This document shows, piece after piece, positions 2,966 to 55,622 of a stretch of 64,000 nt of DNA (position 1 is its first letter; each line of letters opens with the position of its first letter). The stretch is from Halobaculum sp. XH14 (lineage in GTDB: Archaea > Halobacteriota > Halobacteria > Halobacteriales > Haloferacaceae). Location of the stretch: contig NZ_CP134949.1 in the NCBI RefSeq assembly GCF_032116555.1, positions 1,116,001 through 1,180,000 of the forward strand, written 5' to 3'. A program made the translations under genes and the position numbers. The notes beneath the pieces are model-generated. The model was given only the letters and a program-made list of their open reading frames with translations. It was not told the origin of the DNA and ran no database searches.

Positions 2966-3282
2966 CCGCGACTCGGACGACCTGACTGGCCAGGAGGACG
3001 GCCGACACCCCATGGCTGCACGAGCGGGTGTCCGGGGAGCGAGGACTAACCGACTTCCCACAGGGTGGGAATGGAAGGGGCCGCGGCTCTCGTGGTGCCC
3101 CGACGACGCAAGCACCGCAGGAACGAGGCGAAGCCGAGTGACGAGGAGCGCAGCGAGGCGCGGCCCACGAAGCCGCGGGGGCTTCCAAGCCGTTGTTCGT
3201 GGGCAGGACTATCCTCGTGGCGCCGAACACCGATCAGCACCGACGACGCTTTCCCCCGCGCACCCGACGCACCACCAACCGA
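2966..3282. repeat. Intergenic region with dispersed repeat copy A
   Basis: There is no gene in this 317-bp gap. Its second half (about 3065-3205) is a copy of the window's intergenic repeat. The block 3101-3116 matches 18481-18496 in reverse complement exactly. The block 3140-3162 matches 18433-18455 with one mismatch, and 3173-3182 matches 18411-18420. The leading GTGGGAATGGAAGGGGCC (3065-3082) resembles a block in copies B and D. Confidence 0.7.
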
Positions 3283-6224: not shown

Positions 6225-6532
6225 GTTCGATTTGAGTGAGTTCTCCAGGTTGTTCTCTTCCCTGTTACCGGTGTTTCGGTTCGACTGGCCGGTATCTGGG
6301 CCCCTCGAATGCGCTCGTGGCTATCGGTGTGTGTCTCTTCGTCCGTCGCTTCGACTGCCTCGAAAGCCCTCGTGGCCCCTTTCAGTCCCACCCGACGGCT
6401 CCGCACCGCACGGCAGCCACACGCCTCCCCAGCCGATTCGCTCGTTTCACTCGCTCATCCCTCGCGCGATTCGGCCGCCCACAGGGGGCGACCGCCGCGC
6501 GCCACACCTGCTGCAGTCGCACGGTCACCAAC
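6225..6532. repeat. Intergenic region with dispersed repeat copy B (reverse orientation)
   Basis: There is no gene here. The segment from about 6350 to 6520 is the reverse complement of copy D near 55.3 kb: 6454-6482 equals 55300-55328 (29 identical bases) and 6415-6440 equals 55361-55386 (26 identical). It carries the block GGCCCCTTTCAGTCCCAC (6374-6391) and the terminal GCCTCGAAAGCCCT (6357-6370). Confidence 0.8.
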
Positions 6533-8914
6533 TCACTCCTGTCCGTCCCAGAACCGCTCCAGGCCGAAGCGGAGCATGTCCGGACTGACAGGCTGGAACT
6601 CCTCGCGGGCGGGTTCGGGGAAGTACTCCCGCACCGAGTTCCACGAGTCGCGGGCGTAGCGGGCGTCGACCAGCACGCGGACGCCGACCTCCTCGGGGCC
6701 GCGGATGACGCGCCCGATTGCCTGCCGGGCCTTCCGAACTGCCGGTACCGTGAGCGCGGTTTCGAACCCGTCGCCGAACTCGCGGTCGTACGCCGTCTTG
6801 ACGGCCTTCGTCCGCGGCGACGCGGTGTTGATGATGGGGACGCCACAGACGACGGCCGCCGAGAGCCGGTCGCCGCGGTAGTCGACGCCCTCGGTGAGCG
6901 TCCCGCGGATGCTCGTGACGAGCGTCTTCGCCTCGCCGCCGAAGAACTCCGCCTTCAGGTCCTCGGTCGCGCTGTCGGCGCTCGACTCGTCCACGAGCAC
7001 CGGCGCGTCGGTCCGCTCGTCCAGCACGCCCGCCATCCACTCGGCCTCGCCGTAGCTCGGCATCCCGACGAGCACGTTGCCGGGCGTCGTCCGGACCACC
7101 TCCGCGACGGCGTCGGCGTGGGCCTCTCGCGTCTCGTTCTCCTCGTCGGTGGTCCCGCGGTTGCCGTAGGTGAACTTCGGCGCGTCGACGGCGAGCGACT
7201 CGCGGTTCGAGGCGGGGAACGAGAGCCCGTACGTCCGCTCCTCGACCGGCCGTCCCTCCGACTCGAGGTAGTTCAACCCGGTCACCTCCCGGAACACGGA
7301 CAGCGGCGCGAGCGTCGCCGACATGAGCACGCCGCCGCCGAAGTCGGCGAGGCGGTCGCCGATGGCGTCCGCCGGCACGCAGTTGTGGAGCGCGAGCCGG
7401 GCGTTGTACGCCCGCCGCCAGGAGTCGGGCGGCTCCGTCTCGTCCCAGGTCCGCTCCAGTTCGAGTTCCCGAAAGTACGACTCGTGATCGAGCCGGTACC
7501 AGGCGTTCAGCAGCCGTCCGACCGCGGGCGCGGCGCGCTGAGTCTCCTCCTCCTCGGCCTCGTCGAGCACGCGCTTGACCACGGCGCCGACGTGCTCCGC
7601 GCGGGCCCAGACCTTCTCGCCGTACCCCGCGTCGCTCGCCCACTCGGACAGTTCGTCCTCGGCGGGCACCTCGGGGTCCCGGAGCGGGAGTTCCGCGTCA
7701 CGGAGCTCCGTGAGATCCGCGCGCCAGCCCGGGTGGTCACGTTCGAGGTGGGCGGTCACCCGGCGGTCCACCTCCTCGCGGAGGTCACGGACGAAGTCCC
7801 GGACGAGCTCGAGTTCGCTCAGGCTCACCTCCGCGTCCGAGAGTTCCCCGCGCACGAGGTCCGCGTCGGTCGTCCCCTGCGTTCGCTTCCCCTCGTTCTC
7901 GAAGGCGACCGGCTGGATGACGCGGGTGAGTTCGTTCTCGGCGTCCCGGAGCGTCGCGTCGCCGACGCCGTCTGAGACGAGGTCACGGACCCGCGGTTCG
8001 AGCATGTGCGCCTCGTCGCAGACGACGAACGTCGAGTCGTCGAGCAGCGACCCGGTGAACGTGGCGGCCGTCACCGGGTCGAACGCGTGGTAGTAGTTGC
8101 CGACGACGACTTCGACCTCCGGGATGAGCGCCCCCATCATCGAGTGCGGGCAGGTGCCGTGGCCCGCGGACAGCCGCACGAGTTCGTCGGCGTCGATGAG
8201 CCCCGCGTCAGCGAAGTCGAACGGCACCGCCTCGGCCGGGTCGCCGTCCTCGGGGAGGTCCTCCAGGAACTGCGCGTAGAACGGGCAGAACTCGGTTCCC
8301 TCGCCCGTCGCGCCGCCGCCGTGTTCGGGCAACTGGGGGAGGTACGGCGTCGGCTCGCCGGCTGTTTCGAGGTAGGAGACGCCCGCCTCCCCCGAGTCTG
8401 CGATGCCGGTCTGGGCGCGTCTCGCCTGCTGGACGAGCGCGCCGGCCGTGGCGTCGCCGCCGTCGCCGGCCAGCGCGCGGGTGCGCTCGCGCAGCCCCTC
8501 ACAGCGGTCGTACACGTTCGAGTCGTCGATGCCCGCGCGGTTCTCCCGCGAGTACGGGCAGACGTCCGCCTTCCCGACGAGCGTCATCGCCGAGACGGGT
8601 CGCCAGTCCTCGGGGAGCCCGGCGTTGATCGTTTCGAGGTCCTGTTCGAACTGCCGGAGCTGCTGCTTGACGCTGGTGAGCACGAGCACGCGCTCGAAGT
8701 CGGAGTCCGGGTCGCGGACGAGGTGGATGCCGGCGGTGAGCGCGAGCATCGTCTTCCCGGTTCCGCAGGCGCCCTCCAGCGCCAGGTATCCTGAATCGCG
8801 CGCTGACCGGACGGCAGCCTCCACGCCGTCCTCCTGTTCGGGGTACGGGTCGGCGTGCCCGAACACCGCCCGCCAGTCCTCGGCCTCGGTCACAGTGTGG
8901 GTCGCGTTCGACAC
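6533..8914 (-). CDS. Rad3/XPD-like ATP-dependent DNA helicase
   Basis: A 793-aa superfamily 2 helicase of the XPD/DinG group, presumably 5'-3' on DNA. The Walker A loop GACGTGKT is at residues 48-55 and the DEAH box CDEAH at 299-303. Between them lie cysteines C119, C138, C210 and C255, the spacing expected of the XPD-type 4Fe-4S cluster. C-terminal helicase motifs include VLVGMPSYGEAEW, VTSIRGTLTEGVDYRGD and QAIGRVIRGPEEVGVRVLVD (motif VI). Haloarchaea often carry several Rad3-like paralogues in addition to XPD, so a repair role is likely but not specific. It is transcribed alone; a promoter lies about 35 bp upstream. Confidence 0.93.
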   Translation of the reverse strand: MSNATHTVTEAEDWRAVFGHADPYPEQEDGVEAAVRSARDSGYLALEGACGTGKTMLALTAGIHLVRDPDSDFERVLVLTSVKQQLRQFEQDLETINAGLPEDWRPVSAMTLVGKADVCPYSRENRAGIDDSNVYDRCEGLRERTRALAGDGGDATAGALVQQARRAQTGIADSGEAGVSYLETAGEPTPYLPQLPEHGGGATGEGTEFCPFYAQFLEDLPEDGDPAEAVPFDFADAGLIDADELVRLSAGHGTCPHSMMGALIPEVEVVVGNYYHAFDPVTAATFTGSLLDDSTFVVCDEAHMLEPRVRDLVSDGVGDATLRDAENELTRVIQPVAFENEGKRTQGTTDADLVRGELSDAEVSLSELELVRDFVRDLREEVDRRVTAHLERDHPGWRADLTELRDAELPLRDPEVPAEDELSEWASDAGYGEKVWARAEHVGAVVKRVLDEAEEEETQRAAPAVGRLLNAWYRLDHESYFRELELERTWDETEPPDSWRRAYNARLALHNCVPADAIGDRLADFGGGVLMSATLAPLSVFREVTGLNYLESEGRPVEERTYGLSFPASNRESLAVDAPKFTYGNRGTTDEENETREAHADAVAEVVRTTPGNVLVGMPSYGEAEWMAGVLDERTDAPVLVDESSADSATEDLKAEFFGGEAKTLVTSIRGTLTEGVDYRGDRLSAAVVCGVPIINTASPRTKAVKTAYDREFGDGFETALTVPAVRKARQAIGRVIRGPEEVGVRVLVDARYARDSWNSVREYFPEPAREEFQPVSPDMLRFGLERFWDGQE

Positions 8915-11122: not shown

Positions 11123-11237
11123 TTCTGGCAGTTTTCACGAGGATTCGTTCGGAAAAAATTGGCCTCCCGACGGTCGGTCAGTTTCGGGTGCCTGCGTCGG
11201 CACCCGGCGGCCACGGTCGGCCGGCGACGCACCCGCT

Positions 11238-18258: not shown

Positions 18259-18711
18259 TTCCACCCGCGTGTCCGGGATGTGCACTAGCGACTACCGGTA
18301 GTGGCTGAACCACATGTTAGTCATCCGCTGGGTGGGAGACGGCACGGCTCCAGGGTCGATTCTGGTAGTGCCTGAAACCCCTAAGGCCGGTTGCTTCGAT
18401 CGCCTCGAACGCCCCCGCGGCTCTCGTGCTCGCGCGCCTCGCTGTGCTCCTCGTCGGTCGGCCTACGGCCTCCCTCCTGTGGTGCTTGCGTCGTCGTGCG
18501 TCCCCGGGAGCCGGGGCTTTCGAGGTGGTCGTCACGATAGCCGTGATAGAACCGAAGGCGACACATCGGGATATAGCCAGCCGGGGGCTTTCGAGGCGGT
18601 CGAAACGCCGACCGAGACGACGAACGAACCGACGAGCGAACTGACGCGGAATCCGAACGACACGGCGAAGTACCGATCACGTCCGAAAATCCGCCCGAAT
18701 CGCGAGCGTAT
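18259..18711. repeat. Intergenic region with dispersed repeat copy C
   Basis: There is no gene here. The block 18411-18496 is the reverse complement of copy A. It ends in paired elements: GCCTCGAACGCCCCCGCGG (18402-18420) on one side and GGGAGCCGGGGCTTTCGAGG (18507 onward) on the other. A second terminal motif at 18576-18601 matches 55505-55530 of copy D in 25 of 26 bases. The rest of the gap up to 18711 shows nothing recognisable. Confidence 0.75.
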
Positions 18712-55244: not shown

Positions 55245-55622
55245 GTCGGGGACGAACCAACCATCCTGACGTGCGGTCGGTGCGCGGCGGCCGCCCCCCG
55301 TGGGCGGCCGAATCGCGCGAGGGATGAGAGAGCGACGGCGAGCGGAGCGAGCCGAGCGAACGAATCGGCTGGGGAGGCGTGTGGCTGTGCCGTGCGGTCG
55401 CGATGGGTGGACTGAAAGGGGCCGGCTGGCTACGCTCCCGCGGCACGCTCTGCGCTCCTCGTTCTCTGCGGTCGCTGCGGTGCTTGAGGCGCCGGGGATC
55501 GCGTAGCCAGCCGGGGGCTTTCCAGGCGGTCTTCATAGCCAGACCTACTCATCCAGAGTTGCCAACCACGGAACGGACGAAACGCGGACCGCTTTTCACC
55601 CACGCCATCGCACAGTTCGATA
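55245..55622. repeat. Intergenic region with dispersed repeat copy D
   Basis: There is no gene in this gap. Copy D spans about 55270-55545. The blocks 55300-55328 and 55361-55386 equal the reverse complement of copy B; TGGACTGAAAGGGGCC (55408-55423) is shared with B and approximately with A; and the terminal motif 55505-55530 matches 18576-18601. Confidence 0.8.

Follow-up and report, generated by a model that had tools for sequence, protein, structure and literature searches.

Why do two intergenic gaps in the window, the whole 64,000-nucleotide stretch of Halobaculum DNA analysed here, carry nearly the same non-coding sequence in opposite orientations? The initial annotation had noticed this pair, here called copies B and D, and had proposed that the two must be either recent copies or under constraint. 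We found that B and D are two of about 80-90 copies of a non-coding, hairpin-forming repeat of the Halobaculum genome. The repeat folds on one strand, spreads to new sites and is shared by most genomes sampled from the order. We describe the family, its fold and its dynamics, and consider what might copy it.

Copies B and D are members of an order-wide repeat family

Alignment of positions 6340-6540 (plus strand) with the reverse complement of 55250-55450 bore out the near-identity of the two gaps, their opposite orientation and the indel between the shared blocks. Copy B (6357-6510, minus strand) and copy D (55282-55522, plus strand) have identical runs of 27 bases (CAGCCACACGCCTCCCCAGCCGATTCG), 29 bases (CTCATCCCTCGCGCGATTCGGCCGCCCAC) and 13 bases (GGCCCCTTTCAGT), and a 19-base indel within a variable hairpin separates the 27- and 29-base runs. 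The initial annotation had given blocks of 29 and 26 bases plus a further one; the identical blocks exist and the difference in size is immaterial. The 21-base and 23-base parts of these runs had no match with up to three mismatches in 100 dinucleotide shuffles. Both copies are non-coding, as had been claimed. Our own gene calls place copy B between methyltransferase and helicase genes and copy D between CRTAC1-like and AIR-synthase-like genes (the names of these neighbours were taken from the initial annotation and from reading of the translations).

A special relationship between B and D was rejected because the same sequence is found genome-wide. A BLAST search with copy B identified 56 places in the 3.68-Mb, three-contig Halobaculum genome, and the core motif GGGACTGAAAGGGGC with at most one mismatch occurs there at 90 sites (48 forward, 42 reverse) versus none when the pattern is reversed. 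B and D are not nearest to one another: on its own chromosome, copy B is 92% identical over 95 bases to a copy at 11136 and 79% identical over nearly its full length to a copy at 532538, compared with 76% to copy D. The identical blocks are the consensus of an order-wide repeat, and the two gaps are therefore not recent copies of each other. With dozens of copies in this genome and others in relatives, the observation reaches far beyond one pair, and the number and diversity of the copies exclude an assembly duplication as the source of B and D.

A covariance model built from 73 units identified 78 copies in the same genome and 58 and 64 in two congeners. In a wider scan with stricter filters and at most 14 candidates scored per genome, 37 of the 43 genomes sampled from the order had copies, compared with none of the 204 that represent other orders of the phylum. 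The exact 17-base form of the core occurs in at least 80 GTDB stretches; among the matches listed, 79 are haloarchaeal, from Haloarcula, Natrinema, Halorussus, Haladaptatus, Natronococcus and others, and the single Prevotella stretch is taken as a chance match. Haloarchaeal plasmids also carry the family motif. It was absent from the viral contigs (IMG/VR) and phage records searched, and viral origin or carriage was rejected on these zero matches. No Rfam 15 family matched the repeat at its gathering score, weak E-value matches being at chance level, and a known RNA family was accordingly rejected as well. The repeat family is thus real, interspersed, hairpin-forming and order-wide. We found no match for it in open-access papers, so that it is apparently new to the literature and the word "undescribed" is provisional. 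A conserved covarying fold found in most Halobacteriales, at up to about 90 copies in a genome, apparently has no name in Rfam or the open literature searched; haloarchaeal genome annotation thereby gains a repeat class that it lacked.

Anatomy of the repeat unit and the copies in the window

Read along the strand bearing GGGACTGAAAGGGGC, the unit runs from GGGACTGAAAGGGGC through a long, variable stem, interrupted by conserved internal loops, to GGGGCTTTC. The head is composed of the P0 hairpin (closed by GCGCG/CGCGC), GAGGGAYGAG, a small hairpin and GGCTGGGGAGG, and exists in two main versions. The core is GGGTGGGACTGAAAGGGGC. The interior comprises a variable stem of 10-13 bp and inner loops with conserved YAAGCACCGCAG and GAGGAGCGCAGCGAG around the P2 hairpin; a closing stem arm followed by GGGGCTTTC ends the unit. 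The tail motif GGGGGCTTTCGAGG recurs outward in 23 of 70 sites, usually with a period of 57 bases, and across the 70 sites these repeats mostly become less perfect with distance. Full units are mostly 113-127 bases long, and short units, mostly of 28 bases, occupy 20 sites of the genome, copy B included. The unit of about 115-125 bases lies inside a modular element of 250-550 bases overall, for which no sharp outer boundary was found, as similarity fades outward.

Copy B is one of the short units (6362-6389, minus strand; covariance-model match of 27.9 bits). It has an exact core motif GGGACTGAAAGGGGC (6375-6389, minus strand) and a long stem reduced to CCACG, with GGGACTGAAAGGGGC and GAGGGCTTTC almost directly joined. 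Its head, delineated by alignment with copy D and other copies, occupies 6390-6510 on the minus strand (P0 hairpin, GCGCGAGGGATGAG, small hairpin, AATCGGCTGGGGAGGCGTGTGGC). The tail region, read from the sequence, spans 6303-6371 (minus strand), with the tail motif GAGGGCTTTCGAGG at 6358-6371; about 55 bases beyond it lies a second, decayed tail motif.

Copy D, on the plus strand, has a head at 55282-55400 (P0 hairpin, GCGCGAGGGATGAG at 55314-55327, hairpin, AATCGGCTGGGGAGGCGTGTGGC), the core motif TGGACTGAAAGGGGC at 55408-55422, a long stem at 55423-55513 with 13-base arms (55423-55435 and 55501-55513), and the closing motif GGGGCTTTC at 55514-55522. The interior of its hairpin is inverted relative to the outer frame (55408-55524), and the model picks it up on the minus strand; recombination or strand switching between the 13-base arms could have produced such a flip. 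Copy D is the only clearly flipped interior among 65 units of this genome.

The window holds two more copies. Copy A (3067-3186, plus strand; 81.9 bits, E 6.5e-16) is a full unit that the initial annotation had not included, and its outer helix is compensated (GGAAG/CTTCC). Copy C (18407-18523, minus strand; 30.2 bits, E 1.1e-4) is a decayed or mosaic unit.

Several smaller features were observed besides. Many copies contain nested small double hairpins; perfect hairpin pairs, for example GTTCACGGGCGCTTGCGCCCGTGAATTCGGGAGAGCGTGCTCTCCC, are found at L063, L067, L073, L108, L129 and other loci and are similar in kind to the SMRs of Haloquadratum. A second repeat (CTCCTCGAAAAACCTGGAGGGAAAAAGCCGAC...) adjoins several copies in the genus g14 (L409, L412, L416). 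Four G runs (GGGTGGGACTGAAAGGGGC..GGGGG), present at 6375-6389 and family-wide, could form a G-quadruplex, especially in the short units. GTGGGACTGAAAG resembles what we take to be the 3' end of a CRISPR repeat.

Covariation and strand asymmetry of the fold

In the alignment of 73 units, 94.9% of the cells are paired, compared with 77.3% after shuffling and 35-49% in slid controls, and double-change cells number 239 versus 69 shuffled. The outer helix covaries between GAAAG/CTTTC and GGAAG/CTTCC, with CAAAG/CTTTG in the genus g14. The consensus fold is thus backed by covariation, as in structured non-coding RNAs. The mismatched internal loops (GGGG/GGGG, and GCACC/GGAGC with A.A) are conserved order-wide. 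Of the two options in the initial annotation, recent copying or constraint, it is constraint that stands, supported by the strong covariation and by internal loops kept across genera.

In one copy of the genome G107 (L433, G107:C1 near 2833410), the 5' GGGG has turned into CCCC, resulting in a perfect palindrome consistent with quasi-palindrome correction. Both this copy and the flipped interior of copy D could be expected if the family were neutral debris whose arms become perfect through template switching at quasi-palindromes, with no selection involved. We consider this explanation very improbable. Such events look rare, the flip being the single clear one in those 65 units, and template switching would erase the very mismatched loops that are kept across the order.

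Non-Watson-Crick pairs in the long stem are strongly asymmetric, with 40 G.T versus 7 A.C (binomial p about 1e-6). The excess of G.T over A.C on one strand implies that this strand acts folded, although strand-biased mutation could be a partial source of it. One-strand folding fits RNA and single-stranded DNA alike. A structured RNA, in which the copies would be all or part of a transcript such as a multi-copy small RNA or a UTR element and the RNA fold would be selected, could account for the strong covariation with conserved purine-rich unpaired motifs and for a G.T (G-U) tolerance confined to one strand. However, the loops are triloops of the DNA type, not the tetraloops of RNA: a heuristic loop finder assigned 46 of 49 P2 loops as triloops, 39 of the 49 with the sequence GNA. 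GNA loops closed by G-C pairs are extra-stable DNA mini-hairpins (PMC4686876). The type of the P2 loop thus argues for DNA, which is suggestive, not proof.

Genomic context

The genes next to the repeat also weigh on the RNA explanation. With our codon-based gene calls, the neighbours are oriented opposite/same at 29 sites, same/same at 28, opposite/opposite at 22 and same/opposite at 9, and convergent gaps are under-represented. No terminator-like or leader-like orientation rule emerged from these 88 resolved sites. An intrinsic terminator or 3' UTR element was rejected because only 37 of them have an upstream gene on the same strand. Genera have neighbour genes in common in 14 of 192 cases, close to a rough estimate of a few per cent for chance; as this is not clearly beyond chance, a cis-regulator of a regulon was rejected. 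The lack of a strong orientation bias and of neighbours common beyond chance, together with the absence of a match in Rfam and of an obvious promoter in the GC-rich leader (by inspection), makes the structured RNA unlikely in our judgement. Most copies in this genome are single, though all 10 pairs less than 800 bases apart are head-to-head, as are 5 of 5 pairs in other genera among the matches listed.

Occupied sites, empty sites and shuffled modules

Sites differ in occupancy between close relatives. In G001 and G006 the two genes that flank copy D have no copy between them; copy B is missing after the helicase gene in G001, and G002 also lacks the family motif there. Of 33 congener loci retrieved, 11 match a copy-bearing locus of our genome on both flanks, with differing inner modules. 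In the genus g14, one site is occupied in G107 by an insert of about 540 bases and empty in five other species, where the same two genes lie some 45 bases apart (G138 and four others). The left flanks of G107 and G138 are 97% identical and the right flanks only 80%, so that the occupied site could have been gained by homologous recombination. Inspection of this occupied/empty pair revealed no clear target duplication.

Near-identical units also exist at several unrelated loci of one genome (G107). Together with sites where one species has a copy and its relatives have none, they support the spread of the repeat to new sites. The modules assort largely independently (permutation p 0.98 for P0 with P1, 0.08 for head class with P1 and 0.01 for head class with P0). 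Occupied and empty sites and the assortment of modules imply that copies spread, be it by transposition, recombination or both, and that their modules are homogenised one by one.

About one third of the copies in congeners lie in gaps that are occupied here too, and units are conserved across the order. Host-used, BIME-like chromosomal sites, whose folds would bind a DNA-organising or topology protein and be selected at useful places, might explain such persistence. We regard this as quite unlikely, because occupancy differs between close species and, inside one genus, copy number can be 2 or 0 in one genome and above 10 in another (G007 versus G211; G152 versus its congeners).

What might copy the repeat?

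The Y1 transposase domain (PF01797) is lacking in our genome, its two congeners and further repeat-rich genomes, with no matches in G000, G001, G002, G008, G015, G107 and G211, and was found in the repeat-poor genomes G007 (10) and G152 (2). TnpB numbers 1 in our genome, with about 80 copies of the repeat, versus 35 in G007, with about 2. Mobilisation in trans by IS200/RAYT was rejected on this absence of Y1; the mover of the repeat in our genome is not an IS200/RAYT-type Y1 transposase.

What the computation shows is the family with its covarying fold, the asymmetry of the strands, sites both occupied and empty, the shuffling of modules and the restriction to one lineage. The interpretation that we favour, with about an even chance of being correct, is a non-autonomous mobile palindromic repeat, REPIN/PATE-like, which would act as folded single-stranded DNA and spread by copying and gene conversion. 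The G-rich strand would fold on itself when single-stranded during replication, repair or cruciform formation; a putative enzyme encoded in trans might recognise the fold and the conserved internal loops; and copies would reach new gaps and be homogenised by module through recombination or gene conversion. Two steps we infer: the folding of DNA, not RNA, and the movement of the repeat by an enzyme acting in trans. Counted against the mobile element are the lack of any mobilising enzyme found (PF01797 absent and TnpB nearly absent in our genome), the shared occupancy of about one third of congener copies, which indicates more persistence than for a very active transposon, and the lack of a clear target duplication, a sharp outer boundary and copies in the viral and phage records searched. 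Because IS200/RAYT transposases are absent from repeat-rich genomes, the family might tentatively be an order-wide class of structured single-stranded DNA (or multi-copy RNA) elements using an enzyme or binding protein not known for such repeats. What copies a REPIN-like element without a Y1 transposase? Genus pairs with many versus few or no copies (G211/G007 and G065/G152) make this question testable by gene content.

Comparison with known systems

The repeat resembles the structured RNA families of Rfam in its covarying consensus fold with conserved loops, but differs from them in that none of Rfam 15 matches it at the gathering score. Of the terminal inverted repeats and target duplication that mark MITEs, none was seen on inspection of the G107/G138 pair. 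BOX and RUP repeats are modular in structure. Those of Streptococcus pneumoniae (PMC3049150 for the names) are likewise intergenic stem-loop repeats with unclear mobilisation, but they belong to another domain of life and are likened here by description, not by sequence.

REPINs and REPs with their RAYTs (PMC3116915) share more with the repeat: many non-coding, gene-indifferent intergenic copies, predicted single-strand hairpins and inverted doublets. High-copy intergenic palindromes and inverted doublets (10 of 10 tight pairs) are both found here, whereas the RAYT/Y1_Tnp gene is lacking in our genome (no PF01797) and Y1 in several other repeat-rich ones. REPs are 20-40 bases long (PMC3733652), in contrast to units of about 115-125 bases with conserved internal loops in a 250-550-base modular element. 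The PATEs and SMRs of Haloquadratum walsbyi (PMC3119063) are also haloarchaeal, transposase-free and palindromic, with nested small palindromes and core-deleted short forms. Target duplications are not seen in PATEs either, nor was a clear one at the G107/G138 pair, although our repeat has no sharp outer ends. PATEs are tied to IS605-type transposons via common ends (PMC3119063), whereas the abundance of our repeat does not track IS605-type genes, a distinction drawn on gene counts. The gene counts (0 Y1, 1 TnpB and about 80 copies in our genome; 10 Y1, 35 TnpB and 2 copies in G007) speak against PATEs driven by such genes. Since Y1 (IS200/RAYT) is encoded neither in this genome nor in the other repeat-rich ones, we assign the repeat to neither REPINs nor PATEs, although by analogy it appears to work most like one of the two.
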